This document shows, piece after piece, positions 399-18,435 of a stretch of 64,000 nucleotides of DNA; within the stretch, counting starts at the first letter, position 1, and every line of letters starts with the position of its first letter. Position numbers and translations under genes: made by a program. This DNA is from Faecalibacterium sp. HTF-F (GTDB taxonomy: Bacteria; Bacillota; Clostridia; Oscillospirales; Ruminococcaceae): assembly GCF_023347535.1 (NCBI RefSeq), contig NZ_CP094473.1:2046001-2110000 (forward strand), written 5' to 3'. The notes beneath the pieces were generated by a model, which was not told the origin of the DNA, searched no databases, and saw nothing but the letters and a program-made list of their open reading frames with translations.

Positions 399-1094
399 TC
401 AGAGAGTATTGATTTTAGAGTTCAACTCACTATCCGTTGCATCCGGATATTCCTTCCGATAGGTATCCTTGAGTGCATCATACATTTTTTGCTGGTCTTC
501 GCTTCCGATACCAAGTTTTCCCGAAAGATAATCCGAAAAAGTCGCGCCGCTTTCGATTCCATGCTCCTTCATGAATTCGATCAAGTCACTCGGCATTTCT
601 TCTGAGATTTTGCCCTCATTCCTCAGTTCTGCGGTACTGTGCCAGAACTCCGGCGGAAGTTCTATATTATATTTTTCTTCCACCTGTTTTACATACAACC
701 CTGCGCCGATCGCAGCATAGGTTGCTCTTTCTTTTTCATCCATTTCCTTGAGACGCTCTTCATCGACCTTGATATCGTTCCGCAGATGTTCAATATAATC
801 GTTGATCGAATCAAAGTCTTCCGGCTTTTTATCTGCCATTTCTGCTTTCAATCCGATCTCTTCCGGCGTTTCTTCCTTTGGTTTTTCTGTTAATGCGCCT
901 GCCACCGCGCTGATCACGTCGATCGCCAGCGTCAGGATCTTTCCCAGTACAATACTCGGTATGATACCCGGAATCGGCCCGGTCACCAAATCTTTAGCAA
1001 AAGTTCCAACTGCCGACATCACTTCACCGCCAATTTTAGCGCACGTCGAAACCACGGCTGTACCAAGAGACCAAATCGCATCTATAAAGCCCAT
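399..1094 (-). CDS. Hypothetical protein with hydrophobic Gly/Ala/Ile-rich N-terminus; last gene of the Hsp70/HerA operon
   Basis: A 231-residue protein of no family I recognise. Residues 1-65 are rich in Gly, Ala, Val and Ile with few charges and hold a GPIPGIIPS turn. They could form two or three amphipathic or membrane-inserting helices. From about residue 70 the protein turns highly charged and helical (KPKEETPEE, then ERLKEMDEKERATY). There is no cleavable signal peptide and no visible enzyme motif. The ATG follows GGAGGAA at good spacing. It sits 35 bp after the HerA-like gene, so it is probably the final cistron of the operon. The architecture resembles small membrane-active effectors of conflict systems, but that role is inferred from the hydrophobicity pattern and gene position only. 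Confidence 0.75.
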   Translation of the reverse strand: MGFIDAIWSLGTAVVSTCAKIGGEVMSAVGTFAKDLVTGPIPGIIPSIVLGKILTLAIDVISAVAGALTEKPKEETPEEIGLKAEMADKKPEDFDSINDYIEHLRNDIKVDEERLKEMDEKERATYAAIGAGLYVKQVEEKYNIELPPEFWHSTAELRNEGKISEEMPSDLIEFMKEHGIESGATFSDYLSGKLGIGSEDQQKMYDALKDTYRKEYPDATDSELNSKINTL

Positions 1095-1129
1095 AGTATT
1101 ATTCCTCCGTTACATTTTCACATTACGTT

Positions 1130-4100
1130 TTACATAACTCCTCTTATTGACGATCCATTGATTTTTTCCACAGCATCGTTCTCCATATAGGACTTGAAAA
1201 ATTCTTTTATGGCCGACCTGCTGTTTTCTGGTATTTCACCTCCAAAAGAGATCCAATTGATAATGTCTTCCAAAGTGACCCATCCGGATTCCACAGACTT
1301 TTTCAGCAGTTCCGCATAGTCTCTTCTATACCACGCATCTTTTTCTTTTCTCTCCTTTCTCCACAGCCTTATGATCTGATTGGGAATATCACTTCGGATA
1401 AACCTCCACACGTCTCCCGGTGTTTTTTCATTGCCTTTGCCTGTAACAGGCATAAATATTTTTCGTTTGCATTCTCCACTGTAATATTGCTGGACTCGTT
1501 CGGTCAGGAGCGCATCGCTCAAAGGCGCGTCATCCGTGCTGGTCTCTCCCTTGACCTGAACCAGCATTGCCTGACCATAACCGTCCGAGAATACGACCGC
1601 TCTTCCCGTATCGAGATTGGACAAGAAGCTTTTTTGTTCATCATTCAGGGCAATCGTGTTGCCCACAGCCTCTTTATCATCCTGCGCGAATATGCGGTGG
1701 ATTATTTTTGTATTCGTATTCTTCAGAACCTCTGATGCCAGCTTGTTTGGGATCTGATCCACTATCATCAGACACTCCCCATATTTTCTGATCTCCGCCA
1801 GCATATCGGAAAAGGTTTCCACACCTTGCTTTTTATTTTTACTATCTCCAGCTGTGTACTTGCTCAGAAGACGATGAGCTTCTTCGACAAGCAGGATGTG
1901 AGAATGCTTTTTTCCTGTTTTCAGGTACCTTTCCCGGATCGCTTCATTCAGAGCAGACATGATAAAGCCCATGATCAATGCTTTTTCATTTCCGTTCCGG
2001 ATATTCTCCAGTTCCAGAACCACTTGTTTATCCAGCAGCGCATCAACATCAATGGAACGCGGCGTGTTCAGCATTGCCCCCTTGGCACCAAGCGTCAGGC
2101 TCTGGAGCATGGCGCGGATCGAACCAATATATTCGTCCTTCAGCCTCTCGTCAAAGCCCTGTTCGATGACAATTTCAGGAACCACATCCAAAAATTGATT
2201 GATCGTCGGGAACGCATGAACGCCATCTGCAAACGGATCATCGTATTTTGTGTTGTAATTGTTTGCAATGTCCCAGCCACAGTTTTCATAGCAGCGGTAA
2301 AGTGCTGCTTCAATGATCTGAGGCTCTGCGGCCTCCTGATCAAACGCCGCTTCCAGACTGGCTTTGATCATATCCACGTGCGATGTGATGCTTTCCTTCG
2401 GCATAAATTCAAACGGATTCAGCCGAAATGGGGCAACGTCATCATTTCCCAACGTAAAAACCAGAAGATTTTCACAGGCGGGATATTTCTTCATAATGCG
2501 GTATTCTGTCTTTGCCGGTTCTATCACAAGGAAGGGCAGCCCACTTTGCAGCAAGATCTTTTGACAGGTCGTCGTTTTTCCGCTTCCTGTCACACCAGCA
2601 ATAAAAATATGCTTATCCAGTATCTCTTTGTCCAGATAAACCGGCATCCTGTCCACATCGATTCCATCCTGAACCATCGTTCCCAGTTCGATCTGATTTT
2701 TTTGCATCGGAACGGAATAGTTCAGACCAAACTCCACCTGCTTTTGCAGACGCATCCCGATGACTTCCCTTTGGGGAAGCCCTGCAATGACGGACAGTTC
2801 ATTTGTTGAGATCCAGTTGCTGATAAGCGCAGTCCTGTCCGGGCGAACGCTTTGCGACAAGAATGTTCTGGCTTTGCATTGTTCCGCTGTATCATAAACG
2901 GAGCAGCTTGGGATCTGGAATCGTTTCATAAAAGCGATTTGATTCTTTGCGTTGCTATCGCTTCGGCCTGAGATTCGGAATGCACGCAGAGGAACACGAT
3001 TCCCCTGTTTTCCGGAATAAAGCGACAATGCGGTGTTTTCCAGCTTGATTTGAGATGTTGCATACTCGGACATCACATAAAAAGCCGTCATGAAAAGGCC
3101 TTTGCCGCGGCCGTAATCAATGCGAGGAAACAGCACGTCATCGCAATACTTGATCCATTCCTGTGCGCATTTATTCAGATGCTCTTTCGTGACGCTGGTA
3201 GATTCCCCTACAGACTTACTGCTCTGTACGGAATCCGAATGGGATGTACCGGAATTTTCTCCATTCGTCTCCGACTTCCCGGTCTGCTCGCTGTGACTGC
3301 TCCCTTCCGTGCCGCTGTTAGAGGTACTGCTCGAACCGCTGCCTGAAGTTCCCTTCGTCGTACTCTTGCTGCTCCCAGTACTCTTGCTGGTCCCATTTGA
3401 AGTGTTACTGCTTTTTGCCGTGGAAGTTGAGCTGCCCTTAGTTGTTCCATCTGTTTTTGTGCTGGAGCTGCTGCGTCCGCTGTTGCTTCCGTCCTGCAAA
3501 CTCACCTTAACGTAGGTGTTCAGTTCCGAATAGGCCTCATGCAGATTCTGTTCCAAAGCAGCAATTTCTTCCGGCTGGATCGCCTGCGCAACAATGAGGA
3601 CGCAGAAATCGTTGCCGCGCATTACATCCACCAGACGATCCACACCTTGAAATTCTTCGTTATCCTTGATGCTTCCAGCTACGCCCTCGATACGAGAAAC
3701 GAATTTTTTTGTACGAACCTTCTCCAACACGTTGTTTTTTTCTGTCGTACTGGGTTCTTTGATCTTACAGCCACGAAAATTTCCTTCCAGACTGGCTTTC
3801 AGGATACTTTCACCGACTTCCGGCACATTCAGTCTCTGGATCTCCGGCATTGCATCTGAGTCCACGCGATTCAGGCCATAGTAAAATTTCACGCCATGCG
3901 AATCGCCCATCAGGAGATAAATAAAATTGTAACCGGGGACCCTGACTGCGCTGAGCACGTTTTCCAGTGCTTCTTTTCTTGGTGCATGATCCTTGTCATC
4001 ATAGGTGATCTCTTCGATCTGATAGAGGAAGATCTCCTCATTTCCGATCCCGGCATTGCCATATCGCTTTGTCGCATTTGGATCAACGACCTGTCTCTCT

Positions 4101-4210
4101 TTTCCAGGTGCAGTCAAATAATGAAAACGTTCATCCTGTAAATATCGTAAAACTTCAGGCGGCGCAAGCTCTGCGCTGCCTTTCGCTTTTTCATCTGCTG
4201 TTCGTAACAT
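1130..4210 (-). CDS. HerA/FtsK-superfamily ATPase (DUF87-like) with serine-rich linker
   Basis: A 1026-residue P-loop ATPase. The C-terminal half carries Walker A GVTGSGKTTT at about residue 540 and Walker B HILLVEEAHRLL at about 775, followed by a sensor-like stretch (ECLMIVDQIPNKL). This is the arrangement of HerA/VirD4-type hexameric translocases. Residues 1-235 form an unidentified alpha/beta domain. Residues about 240-340 are a low-complexity linker of mostly Ser, Gly, Thr and Lys that probably tethers the N-domain flexibly. The ATG has GGAG six bases upstream. It lies 30 bp after the Hsp70-like gene and 35 bp before the small hydrophobic protein gene. HerA-type ATPases recur in phage defence as DNA-translocating or oligomer-forming partners of effectors; the partner here would have to be the patatin protein or another operon product. 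ATPase assignment is firm; the role in the system is inferred. Confidence 0.9.
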   Translation of the reverse strand: MLRTADEKAKGSAELAPPEVLRYLQDERFHYLTAPGKERQVVDPNATKRYGNAGIGNEEIFLYQIEEITYDDKDHAPRKEALENVLSAVRVPGYNFIYLLMGDSHGVKFYYGLNRVDSDAMPEIQRLNVPEVGESILKASLEGNFRGCKIKEPSTTEKNNVLEKVRTKKFVSRIEGVAGSIKDNEEFQGVDRLVDVMRGNDFCVLIVAQAIQPEEIAALEQNLHEAYSELNTYVKVSLQDGSNSGRSSSSTKTDGTTKGSSTSTAKSSNTSNGTSKSTGSSKSTTKGTSGSGSSSTSNSGTEGSSHSEQTGKSETNGENSGTSHSDSVQSSKSVGESTSVTKEHLNKCAQEWIKYCDDVLFPRIDYGRGKGLFMTAFYVMSEYATSQIKLENTALSLYSGKQGNRVPLRAFRISGRSDSNAKNQIAFMKRFQIPSCSVYDTAEQCKARTFLSQSVRPDRTALISNWISTNELSVIAGLPQREVIGMRLQKQVEFGLNYSVPMQKNQIELGTMVQDGIDVDRMPVYLDKEILDKHIFIAGVTGSGKTTTCQKILLQSGLPFLVIEPAKTEYRIMKKYPACENLLVFTLGNDDVAPFRLNPFEFMPKESITSHVDMIKASLEAAFDQEAAEPQIIEAALYRCYENCGWDIANNYNTKYDDPFADGVHAFPTINQFLDVVPEIVIEQGFDERLKDEYIGSIRAMLQSLTLGAKGAMLNTPRSIDVDALLDKQVVLELENIRNGNEKALIMGFIMSALNEAIRERYLKTGKKHSHILLVEEAHRLLSKYTAGDSKNKKQGVETFSDMLAEIRKYGECLMIVDQIPNKLASEVLKNTNTKIIHRIFAQDDKEAVGNTIALNDEQKSFLSNLDTGRAVVFSDGYGQAMLVQVKGETSTDDAPLSDALLTERVQQYYSGECKRKIFMPVTGKGNEKTPGDVWRFIRSDIPNQIIRLWRKERKEKDAWYRRDYAELLKKSVESGWVTLEDIINWISFGGEIPENSRSAIKEFFKSYMENDAVEKINGSSIRGVM

Positions 4211-4240
4211 ATTTTTCTCCTTGAAGCCTATAACATCCTT

Positions 4241-7200
4241 TTAATCCAGCATGATCTTGGTCGGTCCGAATGTATAGTTGCCAGCGTCGGCATCCACCTG
4301 TGAAGCCGCAACGACAAACTCTATCTCATCGGGCGAAACAGGGCGAAGATACACCATTGCATCCTCATCAACTGCGCTTTCCGGGAAGGAAAGGATTTTC
4401 TTCTTCACCGTTGCGCTTTCCATCAGCAGATGTTTAGGAATTTCTGCGGAGGGATCAGAAGTATAGAACAAGTCAAATTCGTTGACTCCCGCATCCAGAT
4501 ATTCGACCCATTTCTGGTAAGCCGAATTCCTGTTCAGGTAATACTTGAAATATTCATCGCTGTCATCGTCGTAAAATCCGACCCAGAACTTGAACTTGAT
4601 TTCGCTGTCGATCTCTGCCGATTTATCATTGATCACCTTGATGGAGGAGTTCTTGCTGCACTGAACAAGCCCTATCGCCACGCCGGTCTTTCCGGTAGGC
4701 CGGGTAATGTCGTTTTGTTCGCCACTCCCAATCAGCTCCTCCGCTTCTTTTGTTCCGAGCGGCGGATAGATTTTGAAGTATTTCACGTCATCATCCGGAT
4801 CACCCACTTCATTCCGGATTTCTGTCGAATACTTTTCGCATTTGTCTCGGAAAGTTTCACGCAGGATCTCAGATTTGCTTGAGTTTCCCGCAAGAAAAAT
4901 ATGAACAGAGTTGATTTTTTTCAGTTCATCCCCGTGTTTTCCGTGCTCCAGCGAGAACAAAGCATTGAAAAATGCATCAACACCTTGTTCGATCCTCTTC
5001 CTGAGTTTGCTGTCCAGCATTTTCACGTCAACAGCCAGCTCAAAATTTTCCAGCTTATTGCCGCTGCTGTCGAAGAGACGCAGTTTTATTACTCCAGCGT
5101 CAAACAGCTTCTCGTAACCATCCCTGCGTTCCCAGAACGGACGAAGGCACTCCATCATCTGCCGCATATTTGTCCATGCTTCCTGCGAATCGCTGAGCAG
5201 CATCTCGTCGCCGCCAAAGTGCTGGCACTGCGGTGGAAGAGGGAATGCGATATGCGCTTTACGCAGCGTATCACGATTTGCCTTGAACACCTCAAAAGCC
5301 AGCAACTCCAACAGATTTTCTCCGCCAAGATAGGAGTCTCCGCCGTCTCCGAAATGATGGATCACGTATCTGTATCGCCGCTCCTTCTGCCCGGAAGCTT
5401 TTCTCCAGACGCCAAAATCAAAGTCCGTTGTTCCACCACCGAAGTCAAACACGCCATATACGATTTTTTCATCGGACGCCGGGATCAGTCTGTATTCCTG
5501 CAGAGCGCAGACTGCATAAGCCGCCGGTTCTCCGGCTCCCTCCTGAACCTGAAATCTTTCCATGCAGGAAGGATCGTTTCTTATCGTCTCAGGAAAGGAC
5601 TGCGCCAGACCTTTTTTGAAACTGTTCAAAATTTTTTCTCTCACAGATTTTGTATAGGTGACCGGGAACGAAAGCAGATATTTCAGATAAATATGCTTTG
5701 TATGCATATTATTGATGTATAAGCCAATGTAATAAGCGTAGATCTCAATGGGATCAAAATCACCGTCTTTCAGATTCTCATAGGGGCTCAGATCAATTTC
5801 CGTGCCTTTCTGATCCCTGATCCGAACTCGCCGTTTCGGATCTCCAGCCCATTGTTTCAGGTCGTTGAAAAAGGAAAAATAATCTTCTGTGTTTTCATTT
5901 TCTTTCCATGCGCCAAACGCCGTATGAGAGATGCAGATGTCCGACCATTTGGTCAGCGGTCTTCCGGCTGTTGCATTATAGTCTCTGCGAAACGTGTCGA
6001 TATCGCAGAATTGCATCACGGTTGGATTTTCATAATCAGACGCAGTGGGAGCTTTTTCATACCGCCCCATTCCGATTCGGAGCGGACGAGTGACCTCGTT
6101 GCCCTCTTTGCACACAACAACAGTACTTTTGGTTCCGAAATCAATCCCGATGATTCCGTCTTCCTGAATATCCAGCCGTGGGTCTCTGGCGTAGTAGGTC
6201 TTCGCAGCATCTGTATACTGTTGATTTTTCGTTTCGTCCTCCCACAGATCCCACAAACCGCCATTGGGATCCTCCACGATTCTTGGCACATACGGCGTCA
6301 TATCCGCTCGGATCGTATCAAGCTCCAACAGTCTGTCTACGATCTGCTTTTCCTTTTCCTCCGAAATTTTTTGCATCGAATCTGCGAACCGTTTCCGAAC
6401 TTCGCTTTCCGGGAACGTCAGACTGCCAAGGCTCTGAATCTCCCCTCGCACGATCTGGCCGACGATTTTGTTATAGGCCTGCTGATTTACCACGGCTGTA
6501 TATTTTTTTTCCTGCATGGTCGGTTTGATTGGGCCGATTCTATAAAGTGCGGTCAATTCGATCAGACCGATTCTATAAAACAGCGCAAGGTTTTTATACT
6601 CCGCATTCATCTGGAAATTTCTGTCTACAAGTACCCATTGGAGCGCGTTTTTATTCTGTGGGATCTTTGCAGTATAGATATCTCCGACGTCATCGTGCTT
6701 ACGGAATTCACCATATTTTTTTTCCGAGTGATCATTCATGGAATAATACTTGCTTGGAGTCCTTTGTCCGCCGATCGTAAATCCGTCCAGATAGCCTCCG
6801 GCATGTTTTTCCAGAAATTTGATTCCACGGGTCGTACCAAGAAAATATTTCAGCTCATTCAAGTCAGATATTGCCCAAGGATAATTGGAAGGCAGATTTT
6901 TCCTGCATGAATCCTCACACTGTGAATAGCTAAAATAGCTATCGTGAATATCCATTTGTATTTTGAAGACATCCATAACCAGAAACTGCGTATCAGGATT
7001 CGTCGGAAGAAGAACGTTGTTTCCGATGGCAATAAAATCATCTTCCGGCCACTGCTCCAACTGATTTTTAATATTTTCAATTTCTTCTTGAATCATCGAA
7101 CCGACCGCGATGCTTTTCACGAATTCATCATCGTCAGAGATCGGAAGCTTCTTTACGGCACAAATCGCGTGATTCGGATCAAATGCGGCGGAAATATTCT

Positions 7201-7279
7201 GTCGCGGAGCGGTATGCACCGCTTCTTCCCGTTTCGGATAACTTTGTCGGTTTTCTGGATTATTTCTGTTTTTGCTCAT
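4241..7279 (-). CDS. Large Hsp70/actin-fold ATPase with long N-terminal extension
   Basis: A 1012-residue protein with the actin-like nucleotide-binding signature of Hsp70: phosphate-1 motif GIIGIDFGTKSTVVV at about residue 376, phosphate-2 motif VFDFGGGTTDFDFG at about 610, and an adenosine-type motif IFLAGNSSKSEIL near 790. Canonical DnaK is about 610-640 residues and begins at phosphate-1, so this protein has about 370 extra N-terminal residues and no recognisable DnaK substrate-binding domain. The extension contains an imperfect tandem repeat (FYRIGLIELTA then LYRIGPIKPT). The gene lies 21 bp after a coiled-coil gene whose C-terminus looks GrpE-like, suggesting a dedicated ATPase/exchange-factor pair. 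The ATG has GGGAG upstream. Divergent Hsp70 ATPases occur in several uncharacterised conflict-type operons. The fold is secure; substrate and purpose are unknown. Confidence 0.88.
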   Translation of the reverse strand: MSKNRNNPENRQSYPKREEAVHTAPRQNISAAFDPNHAICAVKKLPISDDDEFVKSIAVGSMIQEEIENIKNQLEQWPEDDFIAIGNNVLLPTNPDTQFLVMDVFKIQMDIHDSYFSYSQCEDSCRKNLPSNYPWAISDLNELKYFLGTTRGIKFLEKHAGGYLDGFTIGGQRTPSKYYSMNDHSEKKYGEFRKHDDVGDIYTAKIPQNKNALQWVLVDRNFQMNAEYKNLALFYRIGLIELTALYRIGPIKPTMQEKKYTAVVNQQAYNKIVGQIVRGEIQSLGSLTFPESEVRKRFADSMQKISEEKEKQIVDRLLELDTIRADMTPYVPRIVEDPNGGLWDLWEDETKNQQYTDAAKTYYARDPRLDIQEDGIIGIDFGTKSTVVVCKEGNEVTRPLRIGMGRYEKAPTASDYENPTVMQFCDIDTFRRDYNATAGRPLTKWSDICISHTAFGAWKENENTEDYFSFFNDLKQWAGDPKRRVRIRDQKGTEIDLSPYENLKDGDFDPIEIYAYYIGLYINNMHTKHIYLKYLLSFPVTYTKSVREKILNSFKKGLAQSFPETIRNDPSCMERFQVQEGAGEPAAYAVCALQEYRLIPASDEKIVYGVFDFGGGTTDFDFGVWRKASGQKERRYRYVIHHFGDGGDSYLGGENLLELLAFEVFKANRDTLRKAHIAFPLPPQCQHFGGDEMLLSDSQEAWTNMRQMMECLRPFWERRDGYEKLFDAGVIKLRLFDSSGNKLENFELAVDVKMLDSKLRKRIEQGVDAFFNALFSLEHGKHGDELKKINSVHIFLAGNSSKSEILRETFRDKCEKYSTEIRNEVGDPDDDVKYFKIYPPLGTKEAEELIGSGEQNDITRPTGKTGVAIGLVQCSKNSSIKVINDKSAEIDSEIKFKFWVGFYDDDSDEYFKYYLNRNSAYQKWVEYLDAGVNEFDLFYTSDPSAEIPKHLLMESATVKKKILSFPESAVDEDAMVYLRPVSPDEIEFVVAASQVDADAGNYTFGPTKIMLD

Positions 7280-7300
7280 ACAGCGTCTCCCTTTCTATTT

Positions 7301-8125
7301 TCATACGATCACGAGACTTTTTCTGACGACGGTCTCGCCGTTATAAACATTCACGATCCCCGGTATACAAACCTGCCGTATCTCACCGGAATATCTGCTG
7401 CTGTCCGCCGTGCGGATGTGCAGCTTATCATCAAATGGATCTCCGACATGGCAGTCCATCCATTGAAATATAGGCCGTTGATACTGGTTGTTGATCATTT
7501 TCAGAAAATATGTCAGCGTCTCCAGCAAAATTTTCGTTTCGGATTCACCCAGCCTTTCCCATTCCGACTTCATAAAATCCCACAGCGCAAGCACATTATC
7601 CTTCTGACATCCCATAGCAAAAAACAGATCTGCTGATTCCGGGCGAATGATGCTCGCAGCCTTCCGAAGCACATCGGACGGCAAAGAGCAATATGCCCGA
7701 AACAGTGTCACAGCTTCATCAAAGACGCGGTATCCCGATATTTCATTCTGGATATCTTTGAGCTGCACCGCCTGCTTTGCAACATATTCCTCATACTGTT
7801 TCAGCTTCATTTTTTGATCTTCAAGTTCTTTTCTCTGCTCCTCGCATCGCTGTTCTGCCGCAGTTCCAGCTTCAGCCATGCTCTGATTTTTCTGCTTCAG
7901 AAGTTCGCTTTCTGCATAAATACGTTCGTTTTCATTTCGCATCTGTTCCAGCTCTGATTTCAGCTCTTCGATTTTATTTTTCAGCTCTTCATTTTTTGCA
8001 GAGCCGATCTCACTCGGAGCAGCATCCGATTTCTCTCCCGAAATTATGATCTTCCTGATTTCGGACTGAATCTCCGAATCCTGAAGAGCTGTCAGAAGTT
8101 TATCTTTGAATTTTTCATCTTGCAT
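7301..8125 (-). CDS. Coiled-coil protein with GrpE-like C-terminal domain
   Basis: 274 residues from the ATG at 8125, which has GAGGTG seven bases upstream; a TTG 15 bp earlier is possible but less likely. Residues about 45-130 form a long coiled coil rich in Glu, Lys and Gln. The C-terminal half is globular and ends in a beta-rich tail (IVNVYNGETVVRKSLVIV). A long N-terminal coiled coil followed by a helical then beta domain ending in a V-x-NGE-x-V-x-RK-x-x-V-x-V pattern is the layout of GrpE, the nucleotide exchange factor of DnaK. The next gene encodes an Hsp70-fold ATPase, so I infer a cognate exchange factor or adaptor. The match is by pattern only and the overall sequence is not a housekeeping GrpE. 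It follows the patatin gene after 11 bp. Confidence 0.75.
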   Translation of the reverse strand: MQDEKFKDKLLTALQDSEIQSEIRKIIISGEKSDAAPSEIGSAKNEELKNKIEELKSELEQMRNENERIYAESELLKQKNQSMAEAGTAAEQRCEEQRKELEDQKMKLKQYEEYVAKQAVQLKDIQNEISGYRVFDEAVTLFRAYCSLPSDVLRKAASIIRPESADLFFAMGCQKDNVLALWDFMKSEWERLGESETKILLETLTYFLKMINNQYQRPIFQWMDCHVGDPFDDKLHIRTADSSRYSGEIRQVCIPGIVNVYNGETVVRKSLVIV

Positions 8126-8136
8126 AAATACGCACC

Positions 8137-9024
8137 TCAAATTCGGCTGGCTTTTTTTGCGCCAAAATATTCCTCAAATACACGTTTTGTATCCTTGTAT
8201 CCCTGTTCAATTCTTCGCATGGCGCTCTCGGATGAAAAATCCAGCGTTCCGGTGAACAGATTCCCCAGATCGATTTGTGGGGTAATCTCCAGAATGCAAG
8301 CCCCGGGAAATTTGATACAGTCAACTTTTGAATCCCTGCTCAAATGTACGACAATGAAAAAACGGATCCCCCTATCATACAACGGCCTGATGGGGGTATT
8401 GTCTCCGCCCAACAGCTCAACTCCACCGTCACAGTAGAGTTTTCCGTCGAACAATATCGGATCAAAGACAATCGGAATCGCAGAGGAAGCCAGCAGGATC
8501 GTCTCGATGTTATTTTTTGCATAGCATCTCAGTTCAAAGCGTTTTACCGCAGGAAGTACGCCAGATATTTCCAGACAAGTTGCGAAGCATGGAATTCCTG
8601 CGCGCTGGACTTTTCTCATGTCAACATATCTGTGCATGATCCTCAGCAATCCATCCCGTGTGAACAAGGCCTGTCCCATAGCCTGATTGACCGTTCGTTC
8701 AATGGCAGAACGTGAAACAGTCCTCCATATATTCGCAAGCGCAGCCTGCGAGCCTGCACCTGCCAATGTATCCGTAAAAGCTTTGGAGGATAATATCTGG
8801 TCGCGTGAGATGTTTTTCCAGATCCTTTCTGCCGTACTATAATCGCCTGCGGCGAACAGCACCGCGTTCAACGCCCCGACCGATGTACCAGATACACCTC
8901 CCACATACCGATCCAATCCTTTTTCACGGAGATACTTCCATACACCGATCTGATACGCGCCCTTTCCTCCACCGCCCTCAAAAACTAAACCGATTTGGTT
9001 CAATGTCTCTGTCTCCCTTCTCAC
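8137..9024 (-). CDS. Patatin-like phospholipase
   Basis: 295 residues with the full patatin signature: oxyanion loop GGGGKG (17-22), nucleophile elbow GTSVG (46-50, Ser48), the ASSAIP block (179-184) and catalytic Asp in DGG (Asp199). These give the Ser-Asp dyad of patatin/cPLA2-type lipid acyl hydrolases, which release fatty acids from membrane phospholipids. The GTG start overlaps the upstream stop by 4 bp (GTGA). An internal TTG at 9003 has a better Shine-Dalgarno (AAGGGAG) and would give 288 residues. No signal peptide, so it is cytosolic or membrane-peripheral. Patatins such as CapV are known membrane-damaging effectors of CBASS. Here there is no cyclase; the neighbours are Hsp70- and HerA-type ATPases. 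The effector role is inferred; the enzyme family is clear. Confidence 0.92.
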   Translation of the reverse strand: MRRETETLNQIGLVFEGGGGKGAYQIGVWKYLREKGLDRYVGGVSGTSVGALNAVLFAAGDYSTAERIWKNISRDQILSSKAFTDTLAGAGSQAALANIWRTVSRSAIERTVNQAMGQALFTRDGLLRIMHRYVDMRKVQRAGIPCFATCLEISGVLPAVKRFELRCYAKNNIETILLASSAIPIVFDPILFDGKLYCDGGVELLGGDNTPIRPLYDRGIRFFIVVHLSRDSKVDCIKFPGACILEITPQIDLGNLFTGTLDFSSESAMRRIEQGYKDTKRVFEEYFGAKKASRI

Positions 9025-10838
9025 TTGATCGTCACAGCTTTCAAATGTCTTGGCAAAGAGCCCACTACGATCAGTTTTTTGGCATCATCATGTAAAAAGT
9101 AAATTCTCAGCAGATTTTCCGGGTCATTTCCTACCCCTAGATGAAAATCCAGCGGGCATTCCACCGGCTTTCCGGCAGCTCCCTGAAAATACTTTACCTT
9201 ATACTGTGTCGGAGTGAATTCCACAGTTGTCGTTCCCGTGGGTTTTACCTCAAAAGGACGTCCATATTTTTCAGAGCATCGATTATTCATCTCATCTGTG
9301 CTGATCCTTTCATATCGGCGCTCCCAATAATCTGTTGCAAGAAAATCCAATGCATCACAAATCAAATCGACGCTGATCGATTTTGCGGATCTGTCTTCTA
9401 GTAGAGCCTTCGCCTTGGGGTGCAGCAAAATTCGTCCCGTGAAATTTTCCTCGACCCATTCGGCGATCCGACTATGCTCTTTTGGCTGACTAAGTTTTCG
9501 CTTCAAATAAGCGATGTCTTCATCCTTTTCTGCCAGAATCGTTTCTATTTTCTGCCGCTCTGCAGCAATTTCCTTCCGAAGTTCTTCTTTTTCCTTATCG
9601 ATTCGCTCCTGATACAGTCTCTGTCGTTCCAACTGCTCCTTTAGTGACTGACATTCCTGATCTTTCTTTTTCAATGTCTCCTTCCATTGCACATCACAAA
9701 ATGCCAACTTCTGTTCCCACTTTTCCTCTGCTTTCGCAGATCGCTCCACAATGTCCGCTGAACTCTGAATCAGTCCTTTTCGTGCCATCGAAAGAAACTG
9801 AACCATTCCAAAAGACACTTGCTTATTCCGGGAATAACTCCGCAGTTCATTGCTCAGCTGCTCCAGCTGCACTGCTCGCCGGGCACTCGACGATTTATAA
9901 GGTACTATCTGAATTTTTCCACCATAGCACAGTGGATTCAGAATTAAAATATCACCACATTGTGCTGATATTCCTACCATAGAAATAAACCGTTCAAACA
10001 ACGCATCTTCTAACGAATAACTGCGGAAAAATGTAACACCGCTTCTTGCAAAATCTTCCGTCTGATATGGCACCCCTGCTTTTTTCGGCATCTGCACTGG
10101 AATTTTGTCCAGCGGAATCTTCGGCATCCATGAATCCCGAAGATCGTTCTGTTGAACAAATAATGGTACGTTATCTTCCTTGTTTTCGCGGTAACGAGTA
10201 AAAACTACACAGGGCAATTGATTATCCTGATTTTTCCAGATGGACAGAAGTTTCTTCACTTGCTCTACCGTTGAAAGGGAAATCGTTTCTTCGGTCAGCT
10301 TTGTGAGCTGCCTCAAACCAAAATTCGGATTTTCGATTAGCCGACGAATGATGGCTAACCGATAGACTTCTGCCTGCTGCGTGCCTTCCGGATCAGAAAT
10401 AACGGTTTGAAAACCACACTCTAGTTGTGTGTCTGAGATCCTGTATCCTACATTTGTCTCAATCACCCGACCGGGTACTGCCTGCCGAATTTGCTTCGGA
10501 TTGCCGGGATCTGATCCAAGATCAGGTTCTGTGATCTGCAAAGTCCAGATTCCATTCTCCGGCAGCGATACAATATCAATTACAAAGCCAGCATTGACAT
10601 GAAGAGACGGAAGGCAGGTATTGTCCGATGTCGTGTATGCAGATGGTGTCGGTAAGCATAACAATTCCTCCGGGACATGATCTCCCAAACGCTGCCGAAG
10701 CCATTCCATCGTAATCAAAGCAGCTAATCGCAATCCCTCCTGTGGGGTCGTTTTACTGTTTGCCATATAAGCATGAAGCTGATATGTTGGATATAGTTGA
10801 TTCTTTATCAATTTCACAATGTGATGCGTCTGACTCAT
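9021..10838 (-). CDS. Coiled-coil protein of the Hsp70/HerA operon, possible RelE-like C-terminal domain
   Basis: First gene of the operon. The ATG at 10838 is preferred (GGAG 8-9 bases upstream) over a TTG six codons earlier; it gives 605 residues. Residues 1-330 are an alpha/beta region of unknown family. About 370-450 is a strongly charged coiled coil (KEELRKEIAAERQKIETILA). The C-terminal about 85 residues run from KYGRPFEVKP and end LLRIYFLHDDAKKLIVVG followed by SLPRHL. That ending resembles the RelE/ParE-type strand pattern seen at the C-terminus of several defence-associated proteins, but I cannot confirm it. The stop overlaps the patatin start by 4 bp, implying translational coupling. 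As the promoter-proximal gene without an enzymatic motif, it could be a sensor or scaffold; this is inference. Confidence 0.8.
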   Translation of the reverse strand: MSQTHHIVKLIKNQLYPTYQLHAYMANSKTTPQEGLRLAALITMEWLRQRLGDHVPEELLCLPTPSAYTTSDNTCLPSLHVNAGFVIDIVSLPENGIWTLQITEPDLGSDPGNPKQIRQAVPGRVIETNVGYRISDTQLECGFQTVISDPEGTQQAEVYRLAIIRRLIENPNFGLRQLTKLTEETISLSTVEQVKKLLSIWKNQDNQLPCVVFTRYRENKEDNVPLFVQQNDLRDSWMPKIPLDKIPVQMPKKAGVPYQTEDFARSGVTFFRSYSLEDALFERFISMVGISAQCGDILILNPLCYGGKIQIVPYKSSSARRAVQLEQLSNELRSYSRNKQVSFGMVQFLSMARKGLIQSSADIVERSAKAEEKWEQKLAFCDVQWKETLKKKDQECQSLKEQLERQRLYQERIDKEKEELRKEIAAERQKIETILAEKDEDIAYLKRKLSQPKEHSRIAEWVEENFTGRILLHPKAKALLEDRSAKSISVDLICDALDFLATDYWERRYERISTDEMNNRCSEKYGRPFEVKPTGTTTVEFTPTQYKVKYFQGAAGKPVECPLDFHLGVGNDPENLLRIYFLHDDAKKLIVVGSLPRHLKAVTIK

Positions 10839-10884
10839 CTTGCACACTCCCAACAAAGTACTACGAGCAGCGTTCCTTGTGTAT

Positions 10885-10913
10885 AGTGTACATCAACAGC
10901 CTTTCGATGGCAA
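10885..10913 (-). promoter_or_regulatory. Secondary promoter candidate for the Hsp70/HerA operon
   Basis: TTGCCA (10908-10913), 17 bp, TACACT (10885-10890), about 47 bp upstream of the ATG at 10838. The -10 overlaps a small dyad (TGTA-N5-TACA). It matches the consensus moderately and may act alongside the operator-linked promoter further upstream. Confidence 0.4.
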
Positions 10914-11042
10914 TAAAAAATGACAACTTTCGCCAAATCCAGCACCCAGTCACTGTAACCATGTGCTTTTTCAAACGGAATATGGTCAGTTTTCCTCTGC
11001 GTCATTCAGTCTTCAACAAATTTTCTGTCCGATTACGACCTT

Positions 11043-11079
11043 ATTATACCAACCCAGAATGACAAAATCTGACATTCCG
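11043..11079 (-). promoter_or_regulatory. Operator plus extended -10 promoter of the Hsp70/HerA operon
   Basis: On the minus strand a 25-bp imperfect dyad (11055-11079; half-sites share the pattern GAATGNCA/TGNCATTC) is followed by 6 bp and then TATAAT (11043-11048), preceded by TG one base away as in extended -10 promoters. No good -35 hexamer exists; the dyad occupies that place. The dyad matches the one at the WYL divergent promoter in 20 of 25 positions, and the 6-bp spacing to the -10 is identical, so the WYL regulator encoded at 16579 is the probable binder. A protein covering the -35 position with a conserved distance to the -10 could activate or repress. Confidence 0.7.
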
Positions 11080-11119
11080 CTTATTTCATACAGATCATCT
11101 GATTTCCTTCCAGACAGAG

Positions 11120-11161
11120 AAAAACCTCCTCATGCGGTTCGATCCACATGAGGAGGTTTTT
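11120..11161. terminator. Bidirectional rho-independent terminator
   Basis: Perfect 15-bp arms: AAAAACCTCCTCATG (11120-11134) and its complement (11147-11161) with a 12-nt loop; flanking A and T tracts let it work on both strands. It insulates the Hsp70/HerA operon promoter from the gene at 11182-11685, which reads toward it. Confidence 0.9.
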
Positions 11162-11181
11162 CTTACGATTTATTTTGTCAT

Positions 11182-11685
11182 TTAGTTTCCCATCGATTTT
11201 CTCTGAAAGAACCTGTAAAGGTCGCTTTCAGCCTTGTCATTTTCATGTTTAGCTCTGACTGAAACTTCAGGAAACGTCGATATGTGAACGATATCACAGC
11301 CTTTTTCAACAGGAAAGTATCCTGAAACTGGCAGTTCTGTTCCATTCAGAAACCACTTTCCTGCATGAAGGCTGCAAACACTTCTTGCGTCTGAAATGGA
11401 ATCCCATGTCCATCCAGCTTCCAAAAAGCCTGTCGGACATTCAACCGGTATGTCCGAAAAAACAATAAACCGACAGAGATCACGCTCTTTGTCAATCTGA
11501 AGATTATGGATGATCCTATCCCATTGCAGATCATCCCACCGGGAAAATTCATTTCCATTATTGTATTGCTTCTTCACCGAATTCTCTGTAATTGAATCCT
11601 CTGTACCGTAAAGCACCGAATATCTCGAATGGAACACTTTCACAATCACTGTTTTCTTTATAACATTTTCATTTTCTGGCATCAC
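11182..11685 (-). CDS. Hypothetical protein between the two operons
   Basis: 167 residues from ATG 11685 (MPENENVIKK), which has GAGG upstream; a TTG at 11733 would add 16 residues but lies inside an inverted repeat. The protein is mixed alpha/beta with several Trp (SRWDDLQWDRI, GWTWDSISDA) and no motif I recognise, no membrane segment and no signal peptide. It has its own promoter (11755-11783) and ends 21 bp before a strong terminator, so it is a monocistronic unit placed between the RNA-repair operon and the Hsp70/HerA operon. It could be an accessory member of either system; there is no sequence evidence for a function. Confidence 0.65.
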   Translation of the reverse strand: MMPENENVIKKTVIVKVFHSRYSVLYGTEDSITENSVKKQYNNGNEFSRWDDLQWDRIIHNLQIDKERDLCRFIVFSDIPVECPTGFLEAGWTWDSISDARSVCSLHAGKWFLNGTELPVSGYFPVEKGCDIVHISTFPEVSVRAKHENDKAESDLYRFFQRKSMGN

Positions 11686-11754
11686 TTGTTCCTCATCCCT
11701 ATCCGAAGACCAGCTTGCTGTGGCCTGTGACAATCCATCTACATACTGTTATAA

Positions 11755-11783
11755 AGTATAATACAGTCACAGGATGTTTGCAA
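11755..11783 (-). promoter_or_regulatory. Promoter of the gene at 11182-11685, within an inverted repeat
   Basis: TTGCAA (11778-11783), 17 bp, TATACT (11755-11760). The -10 and spacer lie between CCTGTGAC (11724-11731) and its complement GTCACAGG (11766-11773), so a protein or RNA structure could affect this promoter. A further dyad TCATTTG-T-CAAATGA sits at 11796-11810. Confidence 0.55.
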
Positions 11784-11834
11784 GCACGACCGCTCTCATT
11801 TGTCAAATGATGCCTGAGTAGTTCTTTTTTTGAA

Positions 11835-12425
11835 TCATGCCACTCGCTTAAAATACCGTCCTTCAAACTTTACCCGTGCATTTCCACGTTCCAGACTGGT
11901 ATGCCTGCCCCAGTTCTCATTTCGGATAACAGCTTGTTTTTGCTGATTTTCACTTTGTACCATTTGCCGGAGGCGCGCCACTGCTTTCTGTTTGTTCAGG
12001 TATTGGCTGCGTTCATCAGTGCAAACACTGTTCTGTCCGGTCGGCAGATAAATCACCCGGACACCGGTTTCCACCTTGTTCACGTTCTGCCCGCCCTTGC
12101 CGCTGCTGCGAAAGGTTTCAAACAGCACTTGTTTCGGGTCAAAAACTTCTGTTTTGGCTTCTGCGCAGCTGCTGAAATCCAGAAACCAGTTCTTGCGCTT
12201 GTGACCAATGCGATAAGGACTTGGACAGACCCACTGCACCGAACCGACAAACTGCGATAAATCAGCATCTGTCTGGATTCGCACGGAGCGATAGGTATTT
12301 TCGTAGTATCCCTGTGACGTTTCCAGTACGGAGATTTTATAATATTTTTGCAGGTAGGCCAGAAATTTTGCCACACCAAGCTCACACTCGGCAGGTCCTT
12401 GCCCCGAACTGATTTGGTAAATCAT
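11835..12425 (-). CDS. prfH: Peptide chain release factor H homologue
   Basis: 196 residues. The GGQ peptidyl-tRNA hydrolysis motif is at 111-113 in SSGKGGQNVNKVETGVRV, followed by the basic C-terminal tail of class I release factors. There is no codon-recognition (PxT/SPF) domain, as in PrfH. PrfH frees ribosomes whose 16S rRNA has been cut in the decoding centre, and its RtcB partner reseals the rRNA; this pairing is established for prfH-rtcB operons. Its ATG overlaps the rtcB stop (ATGA), showing translational coupling. It is the last gene of the MoxR-VWA-rtcB-prfH operon. Length is normal for the family. Confidence 0.93.
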   Translation of the reverse strand: MIYQISSGQGPAECELGVAKFLAYLQKYYKISVLETSQGYYENTYRSVRIQTDADLSQFVGSVQWVCPSPYRIGHKRKNWFLDFSSCAEAKTEVFDPKQVLFETFRSSGKGGQNVNKVETGVRVIYLPTGQNSVCTDERSQYLNKQKAVARLRQMVQSENQQKQAVIRNENWGRHTSLERGNARVKFEGRYFKRVA

Positions 12426-13531
12426 TTTGCAATTTCCTCACTTGCCTTAAAGTTGTAGATAGGCTTTGTCCTCTCTACGATTTCCACAGTAGGTTCAACC
12501 TGCCGGAGAATAGTTTCCATCGGCTTATAGGCCATTGGGCTTTCGTCCAGTGTGTTCCGATTGACAGAGCTGGTATAAACACCCTGCATTTCTTTTTTGT
12601 ACTGTGACAGTGTAAAGCTGTTTCGTGCATCTGCACGGCTCATCAGGCGGCCTGCACCGTGGGGAGCCGATTCGTTCCATTCCAGATTGCCCTTTCCAAT
12701 GCAAAGTAGACAACCATCCCGCATATTCATCGGGATCACGAGTTTTTCGCCCGCCTTTGCGGAAACTGCACCCTTGCGCAGAATCATGGAATCCAGATCA
12801 ATGTAGTTATGGATGGTAGAAATTGTTTCTTCCACGTCCAGCTTCATGCTTTTCACAATATCATTTACAATCGCTCTGCGGTTCAGTTCCGCAAACGCCT
12901 GCGTGATTTTCATGTCGTGCAGATAATCGTCCATCAGGCTTTCCGTAGCATAGGCCAGCTCAAAAGGTGTGCCTTCCGGGCACTGTTGAAATGCTTCGCT
13001 CTGGTAAAACGATGCCACTTCCACACCAAGCCGCCGACTGCCGGAATGGATAATGAGCCAGTATGAGCCATCCGCCGCCTTATCAACCTCGATAAAATGG
13101 TTGCCGCCGCCCAATGTGCCTATAGCGCAAAGAGCCTTATCCTTCTGGACATGACGCAGACAAAGCAGCTCGTCCAAGTGTGCCTGTTCTGCAAAATGAT
13201 GCGGCACGGAGCGCACCTGTTTTCCGGCTGGAATTTTATCGCGAATCAATTTATCCAGCTTTTGCAGTTCCAGACGTTTAGCATGGAACTTGACTGCCAG
13301 CATTCCGCAGCCAATATCCACGCCTACCAGACCGGGAGCCACACAGTCCTTGATGGTCATTGTAGTGCCGACTGCACAGCCTTTTCCAGCGTGAACATCC
13401 GGCATAATGCGGATGCTGCTGCCTTTTGAGATTAGACTGCCGCACAGTGCACGAATCAAACCCTCTGCACCGGAATCCAAAGTCTCTGCATATACCAGCG
13501 CAGAATTATAAGTATTTTGTATTGTAATCAA
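12422..13531 (-). CDS. rtcB: RNA-splicing ligase RtcB (PrfH-associated type)
   Basis: 369 residues, complete. Conserved blocks: MPDVHAGKGCAVGTTMT (43-59), the metal-binding VDIGCGM (Asp72, Cys75), GTLGGGNHFIEV, and HGAGR near residue 290, whose His is guanylylated in RtcB. The enzyme joins 2',3'-cyclic phosphate or 3'-phosphate ends to 5'-OH ends using GTP and Mn2+. Its fused layout with prfH suggests repair of toxin-cut rRNA. It starts with TTG at 13531, 15 bp after the VWA-like gene. A bacterial rtcB is usually stress-controlled (RtcR/sigma54 in Proteobacteria); here a WYL regulator sits at the head of the operon instead. Confidence 0.95.
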   Translation of the reverse strand: MITIQNTYNSALVYAETLDSGAEGLIRALCGSLISKGSSIRIMPDVHAGKGCAVGTTMTIKDCVAPGLVGVDIGCGMLAVKFHAKRLELQKLDKLIRDKIPAGKQVRSVPHHFAEQAHLDELLCLRHVQKDKALCAIGTLGGGNHFIEVDKAADGSYWLIIHSGSRRLGVEVASFYQSEAFQQCPEGTPFELAYATESLMDDYLHDMKITQAFAELNRRAIVNDIVKSMKLDVEETISTIHNYIDLDSMILRKGAVSAKAGEKLVIPMNMRDGCLLCIGKGNLEWNESAPHGAGRLMSRADARNSFTLSQYKKEMQGVYTSSVNRNTLDESPMAYKPMETILRQVEPTVEIVERTKPIYNFKASEEIAK

Positions 13532-13546
13532 AGCAATGCCTTTCTT

Positions 13547-15304
13547 TTATTTCAGCCGGAACACCGGCCCTTTGGGTGGAAACGGGAGCCGATTGCCCCA
13601 TGGAATCAGATAAGCGTGGTTGCGTCCCCGCAGATTAAGCCGGTCACAGGCTCCATCGGTAATGATGAGCAGCGGCGCATCTTTCGGGAAACATATATCA
13701 TTTTCCAGCAGGTCGATTCCGGGCTGTAAACGGGTGCCGCCGCGTCCTTTTACCTGAACGGCTCCGGCAATCTCTTCCGGGTTCATCATCCCCTGGTCGT
13801 AAACGGCAGCATCACAGAAAATCACCCGGATCGCCTGCACATCTCTTGCTTCACTATAGCTGGCGATAGAGCCAAGCGCTGCTGCCAGCAGTCCACGGGA
13901 CATGGAACCGGAGGTGTCCAGCAGCACCGCAAATGTCTGCTGTTTTTCCGGGTGCTCTTCCAGCCGCCATGCGGGGCGTGGAATATCCGGAGTGGAACTC
14001 TGCCGCCGACTGAGTCGCGCATAGGAACGGTGCTTTTCCATGACCGTAAAGTTTTCATCAAACCATTTTCCCAGTTCCACATCCCACGAAATGGGCGGGC
14101 GGGACAGCGCATGGATTTCTTCGATTAGTCCAGCAGGCAGATAGCCCCTGTTCTGCTGGGTGTGATATACAAGCCCCTGCTGCAAGGCAGAACGATAGAC
14201 GGAATCCAGTTTATTGCCGTTCAAATCTACCACTTCTGAGCCATCGCCATAAAGCAGATCACCCGGATTTTCTTTCAGGTACTGCCGGATGTTTTCACAG
14301 AGTTGGTCATAGACCGCTTCTGCGGACATCCCATGGAACTGGTTATCGAACAGTGCTGACTCTAGCATACAGCCTACTTTCATCTCACAGAGCCAGTCAT
14401 TCACCACATAATCACAGGCAACATTCCAGAGTTCGGGTATTCTATCTTCACAGCGCAAATCATGGCGCAGAGCCGCATGAAGAAATTCATGCGCCAGCAC
14501 GAATTTCCACTCTTCCAGATTCAGGCGGCAACGAGGATTGATATAGATTTCGCCCAGTTGCGGGCTGACTGCTGCAACCGGGATGTTCAGCCGGGAAACA
14601 ACATCGCCGCTGTCCACGATGTGGAACGCCGAGGCTACTGCACCCAGCAGCGGAAAACTGGATAAAAACCAGTCCCGTGCCTGCAAATAGACAGGCTGCA
14701 TCCAGTAATGCTGATGTCCGGTGGAGATTCCTCTGGATTCCATCAAGGTCTTCTGCATTGATGCCTGAAGGGACTGAGCAAAAATTTCTGTATAATCCGT
14801 TTTGATATCGTCCCGGTTCCACACCATATCGGGCCTGCCGCCAGTCATAGTGCTAAAAATGCTTCCAGAAACCGAGGCGGTCTGTAATTGCTGGAACGCC
14901 TGCTCTTCCTCTTTGACCGGAAAAGGCAGCTCCTGCTGAAACTCCGGAGGCGGTGTGCCGATATGGCTGTCCTTCAGGAAGCGCGCAATGACTAAATCAC
15001 AAGCCATATTCCAACGGGTATCTTTCATACGCTCTTTCTGAAAATGTCCGAAGCCAAGATGCAATAGGCAGTGGCTTATGATATATTCCCACTCTCCAAC
15101 GGATGCTTTCCGGTGCGGATTCAGATAAATGTCCCCATCGTTTGTAACATAAGCCCAGTCTGCTTTTGCCATGGGATAACGTTCAGAGCAGTATACACGC
15201 GTGCAGTATGCAAGCCGGAACAGGGGGCCATCCTCAATTTTTTCAACCGCCTTTCGCCATGTGGGGATGCTGTCCTGCTGCGTTTTTTCCTCTTTTTGGC
15301 CCAT
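13547..15304 (-). CDS. Metallopeptidase-like/VWA-like protein (DUF2201 type) with duplicated N-domain
   Basis: 585 residues. Two related segments occur in tandem: EWEYIISHCLLHLGFGHFQK (71-90) with WNMACDLVIARF after it, and EWKFVLAHEFLHAALRH (265-281) with WNVACDYVVNDW after it. The second has an intact zincin motif HEFLH (272-276); the first is degenerate (HCLLH, 78-82). The C-terminal third holds a VWA-like metal-site segment FAVLLDTSGSMS near 460 and a later TDGACD. This layout matches the VWA-like/metallopeptidase proteins that pair with MoxR AAA ATPases. The start is 4 bp from the MoxR stop. The pair probably forms an ATP-driven remodelling complex linked to RNA repair; the substrate is unknown. 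Confidence 0.88.
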   Translation of the reverse strand: MGQKEEKTQQDSIPTWRKAVEKIEDGPLFRLAYCTRVYCSERYPMAKADWAYVTNDGDIYLNPHRKASVGEWEYIISHCLLHLGFGHFQKERMKDTRWNMACDLVIARFLKDSHIGTPPPEFQQELPFPVKEEEQAFQQLQTASVSGSIFSTMTGGRPDMVWNRDDIKTDYTEIFAQSLQASMQKTLMESRGISTGHQHYWMQPVYLQARDWFLSSFPLLGAVASAFHIVDSGDVVSRLNIPVAAVSPQLGEIYINPRCRLNLEEWKFVLAHEFLHAALRHDLRCEDRIPELWNVACDYVVNDWLCEMKVGCMLESALFDNQFHGMSAEAVYDQLCENIRQYLKENPGDLLYGDGSEVVDLNGNKLDSVYRSALQQGLVYHTQQNRGYLPAGLIEEIHALSRPPISWDVELGKWFDENFTVMEKHRSYARLSRRQSSTPDIPRPAWRLEEHPEKQQTFAVLLDTSGSMSRGLLAAALGSIASYSEARDVQAIRVIFCDAAVYDQGMMNPEEIAGAVQVKGRGGTRLQPGIDLLENDICFPKDAPLLIITDGACDRLNLRGRNHAYLIPWGNRLPFPPKGPVFRLK

Positions 15305-15308
15305 ATCG

Positions 15309-16367: not shown

Positions 16368-16460
16368 AGTAATCTTACCTCCATAATTTTTCGGATAGTT
16401 TTCTTTCTATGATTCAAAGATTTCATCTTGTTGCTTCTCCTTTCCCGTTTGTTTGAGCAT

Positions 16461-16509
16461 AGTATAGCAGAACAGCATGACAGAATCTGTCATGCTGCAA
16501 ACTTATAAT
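16461..16509. promoter_or_regulatory. Divergent promoters around a perfect 25-bp operator
   Basis: The operator is CAGCATGACAGA (16473-16484), one A, and the exact complement (16486-16497). To its right, 6 bp then TATAAT (16504-16509) serves the WYL gene. To its left, on the minus strand, 6 bp then TATACT (16461-16466) serves the MoxR-VWA-rtcB-prfH operon. Neither promoter has a recognisable -35; the operator occupies that position for both. The symmetrical 6-bp spacing implies one bound dimer controls both directions. The same arrangement recurs at 11043-11079. Confidence 0.82.
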
Positions 16510-16578
16510 ATCATTATCCTGAGATTGTCTTTTGAAGGATTTTTTCGTATACTAAACGTAAGAAACGAGGGAGAGAGC

Positions 16579-17598: not shown

Positions 17599-17692
17599 TG
17601 ATATGAACCGAAAAACAGCGTATATCTTCACGACAGCACGGCTGCTCAGAAGCGTGATTGAACCAATGGATTTTGGAAGGAAGAGAGTTTTT

Positions 17693-17857
17693 ATGAAAAA
17701 GAAGCAGGACAGACCGCTCACCGCAGAGATGGTAACAGAAGAGACCGTCTTACAGCCGGTTGACGAAGCAGAAAATAATGCAGACAGCAAAATCCGCACA
17801 CAGGAGCGCATCAAACAGCGCCCGCTGCCCCCGCCGCCTGTTAAACCGACCAACTAA
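17693..17857 (+). CDS. Small hypothetical protein with proline-rich tail
   Basis: 54 residues from ATG 17693, which follows GGAAGGAAG; an in-frame ATG at 17603 would add 30 residues and has a weaker GAGGTG. The protein is hydrophilic, begins KKKQDRP and ends QRPLPPPPVKPTN. It lies 94 bp after the WYL gene in the same direction. I do not recognise a family; it is probably a real but disordered peptide from the mobile-element backbone. Confidence 0.45.
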   Translation: MKKKQDRPLTAEMVTEETVLQPVDEAENNADSKIRTQERIKQRPLPPPPVKPTN

Positions 17858-17913
17858 AAAGCGTTGTGCTTCACGGTTTGACGTAAAAATAAAAAGCATC
17901 TGTCCTGCGCGGC

Positions 17914-18404: not shown

Positions 18405-18435
18405 CGATAAACCGCTTATCTCAAGGAGGCTAATT

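Follow-up and report, generated by a model that had tools for sequence, protein, structure and literature searches.

A candidate chaperone-gated conflict system combining a patatin, a GrpE-like/Hsp70-like pair and a HerA-type ATPase on a Faecalibacterium integrative island

Hsp70 and GrpE are textbook housekeeping chaperones. Why, then, do genes for an Hsp70-like and a GrpE-like protein lie packed together with genes for a patatin lipase and a HerA-type ATPase, and do these genes form one system? The question is raised by a stretch of 64,000 nucleotides from Faecalibacterium sp. HTF-F (NZ_CP094473.1, positions 2,046,001 to 2,110,000), here called the window, which carries such an operon on its minus strand. 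A first reading made from the sequence alone (the sequence-only reading) had proposed that six genes of this operon constitute an undescribed conflict system. Our data are best explained by a conflict system that was gained by horizontal transfer and has a dedicated GrpE-like/Hsp70-like pair as its base. That the operon, in its patatin form, is a chaperone-gated, membrane-directed system, most likely antiphage, has in our estimate a probability of about 0.4, judged from sequence comparison and a predicted structure.

Layout and protein families of the operon

All six open reading frames (ORFs) are present at the places given by the sequence-only reading, tightly packed on the minus strand. Numbered by order of transcription, they are g1, a 611-residue coiled-coil protein (9021–10856, with a likely start at the ATG at 10838); g2, a patatin phospholipase (8137–9024); g3, a GrpE-like coiled-coil protein (7301–8125); g4, a 1012-residue Hsp70-like ATPase (4241–7279); g5, a HerA/VirB4-like ATPase (1130–4210); and g6, a small protein (399–1094). 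Intergenic distances range from −4 to 35 bp: g1 and g2 overlap by 4 bp, 11 bp separate g2 from g3, and the remaining gaps are 21, 30 and 35 bp. The ORF of g3 was listed as 7301–8140 with a TTG start at 8140, but the most probable start is the ATG at 8125, since M6 is kept in 93% of 68 aligned proteins, and it is this start that gives the 11-bp gap. A seventh co-oriented gene, g0 (183 residues, 11182–11733), lies 325 bp upstream of the six-gene run. Scans for promoters and terminators gave the same counts as in shuffled sequence.

The claim that g4 has an Hsp70 fold was borne out by its AlphaFold2 (AF2) model [mean predicted local distance difference test score (pLDDT) 82.2], which Foldseek/VIA superimposes on DnaK (7krv_B, E = 2.7e-18, probability 1.00). 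In the model an N-terminal region (residues ~1–330, fold unassigned) is followed by a nucleotide-binding domain (~373–879) and a probable β substrate-binding domain (~880–1012). Longer structural alignments extend to model residue 1012 at an r.m.s.d. (root mean square deviation) of 7–8, where the model ends in strands. The actin-like nucleotide-binding domain contains the phosphate and adenosine motifs that mark Hsp70 membership; D380, G382, T383, S385, D612, G614–G616, T617, D619 and G798 are invariant in 80 aligned proteins. By predicted structure g4 clearly has the DnaK fold with its ATP-binding motifs intact; no helical lid is seen in the model. In a single-sequence search with g4 no match to an HSP70 family reached E ≤ 1, none of the four PF00012 places in its own genome corresponds to g4, and a sequence search of the PDB gave no match. 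The N-terminal region is the variable part of the family; in the homologues from an Acinetobacter plasmid (L003) it has, by eye, a DUF1566-type look.

The GrpE-like character of g3 emerges in profile–profile comparison, where hhalign gives 96.2% (E = 2.7e-9 for one comparison) against eight GrpE proteins found by pattern in 25 GrpE loci. On this comparison g3 has the coiled coil and C-terminal β domain that mark GrpE. The 25 Pfam families shown for g3 do not include GrpE, and the protein would at best be a remote member.

Patatin and HerA were also correctly named. g2 matches PF01734 (E = 5.4e-28) with S48 in a GTSVG motif and D199 in DGG. g5 matches DUF87 (E = 2.5e-7) and the PADLOC HerA model (E = 7.8e-20), the latter far under the antiphage HerA cut-offs (46 vs 800 bits), as well as, at scores below the respective cut-offs, NCBIfam CedD (E = 7.8e-29) and ser_rich_anae_1 (E = 3e-22). 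It carries a Ser-rich insert (residues ~241–345), a Walker A motif at residue 539 and a Walker B/EEAH motif at 772, and K545, E776, E777 and R808 are present in 31/31 aligned proteins. The N-terminus of g6 is G/A/S-rich, and in 32 of 33 aligned family members the most hydrophobic 19-residue stretch begins within the first 60 residues. Its hydrophobicity (family median 1.71, window 1.98; compare 1.41 for the HerA median and 1.68 for the window patatin) is moderate, and the idea that this small protein helps to damage the membrane found no support.

A recurring core and the place of the patatin

Scanning 84,980 species genomes with a profile gave 358 relatives of the Hsp70-like protein; the 80 best matches (79 loci) were read. 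These loci, two plasmid loci with Hsp70-like genes, four plasmid loci with HerA genes and the window make up 86 sequences, which were scanned in six frames. Relatives of g4 were found in 82, of g3 in 70, of g5 in 33 and of g6 in 26; 23 contain a small protein of a family (c5 and c6, which hhalign joins at 98.1%) that is the fifth of the core. The patatin and g0 occur in 2 each and g1 in 1. As a recurring unit the full six-gene set was rejected: its gene order, for which a conservation scan had been proposed, is found in none of the other 85 sequences. What stands of the one-system claim is that the GrpE-like, Hsp70-like, HerA and g6 genes recur together and that patatin, GrpE-like and Hsp70-like genes adjoin in a second genome; the 611-residue gene lies outside the recurring unit.

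HerA is present in 27 of the 79 loci, and all five families (GrpE-like, Hsp70-like, HerA, g6 and c5) in 22, from three phyla. Four of the five HerA loci without the full set (L007, L009, L046 and L083) are on contigs whose ends cut into the core or fall close to it; in the fifth, L054, the Hsp70 ORF is short and the position of c5 is taken by a g0-like protein. This protein (L054, 15335–15961, directly after the g6 homologue) is the only relative of g0. A profile comparison of g0 with c5 was not significant, and g0 is possibly a divergent counterpart of c5.

The order GrpE–Hsp70–HerA–g6–c5 is seen in 11 of the 22 complete loci, all Bacillota (in L006 the Hsp70 gene is split), and the order Hsp70–g6–HerA–g6–c5–GrpE in eight, from Vibrionaceae and kin (L045 has two Hsp70 genes). 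L022 (Ghiorsea), L041 (Campylobacteraceae) and L062 have other orders. That the same gene set is kept in several arrangements speaks for a functional unit. Distances between the families are correlated: Hsp70–HerA r = 0.96 (25 loci), GrpE–Hsp70 0.92 (64), GrpE–HerA 0.87 (25), HerA–g6 0.78 (24) and Hsp70–g6 0.72 (23); for each, 0/999 permutations were as high, host relatedness being included in these values. On an Hsp70 tree made by a quick method, with loci on short contigs scored as lacking HerA, the loci with HerA are clustered, yet 14 changes are needed, at least nine of them forced by supported branches, which suggests repeated gain or loss of HerA.

The second patatin is in Pseudoflavonifractor sp. 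60 (L005), where a patatin gene (7427–8545, Pfam E = 4.9e-30) is followed after 12 bp by a GrpE-like gene (8558–9454) and after a further 6 bp by an Hsp70-like gene (9461–12577). A Phage_integrase gene (12622–13809, E = 9.3e-22) follows on the opposite strand. Neither HerA, g6 or g1 nor another transport gene was recognised near this cassette. Its Hsp70-like protein is sister to that of the window [Shimodaira–Hasegawa-like approximate likelihood ratio test (SH-aLRT) 99, quick-method tree, with long branches on both]. The two patatins are 32% identical over 293 residues (E = 1.4e-37). Since this alignment scores 134 bits, compared with 112 and 109 bits for two of the 34 plasmid patatin records, the two patatins are plausibly one inherited partner.

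Recombination could instead have placed a separate module of 611-residue protein and patatin in front of a GrpE–Hsp70–HerA–small-protein core to which it has no functional link. Such a patchwork would explain why the 611-residue protein, whose residues 392–606 match the PADLOC candidate HEC-07 (best model PDLC04161, E = 9.5e-27), is found in none of the other 85 sequences, and why the 3.8–4.8 kb seen around its relatives, in four genomes from a single other genus, contain no core gene. It also suits the abundance of patatins, at least one of which occurs in each of 10 genomes tested; for the same reason the patatin count across these genomes is uninformative. The sister lineage in L005 nevertheless has its patatin directly before the GrpE-like gene at nearly the same spacing, and in the window g1 and g2 overlap by 4 bp only 11 bp from g3, so that we regard a chance assembly as improbable.

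Known systems and possible function

Patatin effectors are known in CBASS and other antiphage lipases. The window patatin has its catalytic dyad intact and weakly matches a CBASS lipase model (E = 1.4e-4; 21.2 vs a cut-off of 200 bits), but no CD-NTase-like hit is found among the 20 proteins (18 from the window, two from its left flank) scanned with Pfam. HerA-SIR2 and HerA-DUF4297 systems contain a HerA-superfamily ATPase, as does the operon, but the same 20 proteins include no SIR2 or DUF4297 partner.

Closer likenesses exist. Type III-A CoCoNuT restriction systems have a reported extension that pairs HerA with a small helical protein (PMC11090510). g5 and g6 are 43% (over 850 residues) and 32% (E = 3e-22) identical, respectively, to two neighbouring proteins, HerA and a small protein, encoded after a DUF2357 gene on a plasmid from Photobacterium (L084), a locus which from its annotation we read as such an extension. 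The window differs in that neither McrB nor McrC (DUF2357) is among the 20 proteins, a stand-alone GrpE/Hsp70 pair being present instead; the CoCoNuT Hsp70 units have degenerate Walker A-like motifs according to the same source (PMC11090510), whereas g4 retains all ATP motifs. g4 was also compared with the DUF2357 protein of L084, and no homology was found. HSP70 and GrpE genes also occur together in the GAP1-N2 conflict loci (Kaur et al., 2020, PMC7159879), which are a conflict-type neighbourhood of actinobacteria and firmicutes. Unlike those loci, the window yields no GTPase (DO-GTPase) or GAP1 hit among the 20 proteins, and its Hsp70 is too divergent for PF00012.

The claim that the system is undescribed thus holds for the combination and fails for its parts. 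What appears to be new is the union of HerA and small protein with GrpE and Hsp70, together with the patatin–GrpE–Hsp70 cassette; the component pairs are in print. No description of the five-gene core or of patatin–GrpE–Hsp70 was found in open-access full texts, outside which most subscription journals lie.

In the reading that we favour, the Hsp70-like protein would bind the patatin, or misfolded or foreign protein arising from phage infection, and keep the lipase inactive. Infection would shift the client load of the Hsp70-like protein, and GrpE-assisted nucleotide exchange would free the patatin, which would then degrade the cell's own phospholipids and stop the infection. A second arm may be provided by the HerA ring together with the small G/A/S-rich protein, acting as a trigger responsive to nucleic acid or protein or else as a pore in the membrane, and the 611-residue protein may be an added sensor or effector. 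If this is correct, the ATP cycle of a chaperone can serve as the sensor or the safety catch of a toxic effector. It would also tie together the CoCoNuT HerA extensions, the GAP1-N2 HSP70/GrpE loci and the Hcp/VgrG-like toxin loci, which have so far been described piecemeal.

Such an intracellular reading accounts for the L005 cassette, with its lack of a recognised transport or immunity gene, for the WYL genes and for some defence neighbours. WYL genes lie just before the operon in L050, L055, L064 and L066 (one cluster, Pfam run on the L064 protein) and in L003, one gene away in L147, and also on the island of the window. PADLOC models, run on 112 of the 193 neighbouring ORFs of the 22 core loci, find four WYL, three Type I methylase, three mads_2 (perhaps the same proteins), two specificity and two Csx1/CARF proteins; Pfam finds two GmrSD_N on the same ORFs.

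Several observations weigh against it. The neighbour counts have no control set, concern few of 112 proteins and come from a greedy ORF caller with wrong-strand picks in G+C-rich contigs; the remaining neighbours are transporters, kinases and housekeeping genes. No relative of the Hsp70-like protein was found in phage records or viral contigs by methods that miss distant relatives. The patatin is limited to two of the 86 sequences. In L005 it is preceded at a distance of 7 bp by an ORF of 163 residues that is of doubtful reality and matches nothing in Pfam, so that a further partner is possible there. In 42 of the 79 loci (some on short contigs) the GrpE–Hsp70 pair was found with neither HerA nor patatin, and toxin and immunity genes beside relatives of HerA and Hsp70 would fit delivery to other cells better than an intracellular role.

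The 42 loci with neither HerA nor patatin, and the conserved chromosomal site that many pairs share in Bacillaceae and Lachnospiraceae-type genomes, would suit a specialised stress chaperone pair with no part in conflict, whose neighbours merely hitch-hike on an island. The pair is, however, rare and patchy. Genome draws with a single-sequence query found it in the own genome and in 0/60 of its relatives and 0/390 others in the class; draws further afield gave 1/393 others in the order and 5/397 others in the phylum, and a draw of 270 genomes from one related family returned only the genome already known from the order draw. It is carried on plasmids in L003 and L004, lies on an island in the window and sits beside an integrase in L005, and a pure stress role appears very improbable. 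Of the six loci from the draws, L146, L149 and L151 contain HerA and g6, L147 and L148 have the pair in one operon with spike-like genes, and in L150 the Hsp70-like gene is alone.

Because relatives of HerA and Hsp70 adjoin toxin and immunity genes, delivery is a serious alternative. HerA (EccE3/VirB4-like) and the small protein would then be a translocase, and the Hsp70/GrpE pair a pilot chaperone that passes the patatin on for delivery, as an effector, to other cells. In L147 (4751–18990) a WYL gene, a 243-residue ORF, the GrpE-like and Hsp70-like genes, a DUF4280/AHH protein (AHH nuclease 22.2 vs a cut-off of 22.3 bits), Imm11 (3.1e-9), a 730-residue ORF, an Hcp-like protein (Hcp/TssD, weak at 0.0024 and under cut-off), a VgrG-type protein (Phage_base_V, 2.8e-10) and two more ORFs follow in a row. 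Relatives of the DUF4280/AHH, Imm11, Hcp-like and VgrG-type proteins are found in L148, and of the last two in L053 and L062, the Pfam baseplate matches of L053 being under cut-off. On a Helicobacter plasmid (L004, 5115–13810) a GrpE-like gene and an Hsp70-like gene in two ORFs are accompanied by an HNH endonuclease, SMI1/KNR4 and FtsK/SpoIIIE, with a WXG100 match just under cut-off (24.0 vs 27.3 bits). On Lactococcus and Escherichia coli plasmids, HerA relatives without Hsp70 lie with two dynamin genes, an HNH-type nuclease and, in one of the two loci, SMI1/KNR4 (L085, 3245–11661; L086, 4389–12788, the one with SMI1/KNR4). A contig from a viral collection (L152, 1–15294) holds a relaxase, a coupling protein, a HerA relative and a distant patatin, one of three weak patatin relatives in viral contigs, as well as an HNH-like ORF and a second lipase-like ORF (both by eye) and a weak SMI1/KNR4 match. 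The translocase-like ATPase points the same way, and for related ATPases a role in defensive secretion has been proposed by the authors of the CoCoNuT study (PMC11090510). The window itself fits delivery less well: no immunity gene is recognised beside the patatin, and no tube or spike, WXG100 or toxin/immunity protein is among the window proteins scanned, which comprise ORFs of 180 residues and more. L005 would have to export its patatin with no HerA, g6 or other recognised transport gene, and neither patatin has a visible export signal, since their most hydrophobic stretches start at residues 173 and 247 and are not N-terminal. We judge export less likely than the intracellular reading, of which it is the main rival.

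A broader proposal, made tentatively, is that the pair is the constant core of conflict systems that form an unnamed class and span at least three phyla, the chaperone cycle of the pair acting as a hold-and-release switch for an exchangeable effector machine. The machines exchanged would be the patatin (window and L005), HerA with the small protein and c5 (22/79 loci), Hcp/VgrG-like spike genes (L147 and L148 with a nuclease-type toxin and immunity gene; L053 and L062), and FtsK with WXG100-like, HNH and SMI1 proteins (L004).

The integrative island and further loci

An integrative location had been proposed for the operon and was confirmed. The island spans 21,271 bp (window −1209 to 20061; it begins 1,210 bp left of base 1, and positions 1–20061 lie inside the window) and has TATGT at both ends. 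Its flanks abut, leaving an empty site, in 4/4 congener stretches compared (from four of nine congeners searched), and its G+C content is 47.3% vs 51.5% in the right flank. A large serine recombinase (18367–20013, plus strand; Pfam Resolvase, Recombinase and Zn_ribbon_recom) marks the right end.

The island also carries genes for a PrfH-like protein (RF-1 domain), RtcB, a DUF2201/VWA protein and a MoxR-like AAA protein, packed on the minus strand, with a divergent WYL gene (together 11835–17598). The latter encodes a WYL/WCX-domain regulator-like protein (16477–17598, plus strand; WCX 2.3e-10, WYL 1.1e-6). RtcB2–PrfH is reported to protect E. coli from colicin E3 (PMC9223846).

Mobile settings are found for the Hsp70-like family elsewhere. 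A tblastn search of 72,556 plasmid records gave relatives in two, from Acinetobacter piscicola and a Helicobacter, and the L005 protein as query returned the same two records. The Acinetobacter plasmid locus (L003, 4106–18429) comprises a WYL gene, HerA, small proteins, a GrpE-like gene, two tandem Hsp70-like genes, a HEPN gene and a dynamin-family gene.

In Ureibacillus (L008, 2617–4716) an Hsp70 (PF00012, 3e-102) fused to a VWA domain is encoded upstream of the GrpE-like/Hsp70-like pair. In L036, L040, L051, L061 and L069 an otherwise unaccompanied pair occupies the same conserved site, flanked by gene clusters among whose members are flagellin and DUF6240 (Pfam run on one member of each). 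A second ORF that by eye resembles a large serine recombinase (L002, 12646–14571) lies immediately beyond the island's left end. Over 969 bp the left end itself (window −871 to 85) shares 70% identity with sequence at another place in one congener (L133, 13897–14858, in G010), which is perhaps part of a related element.

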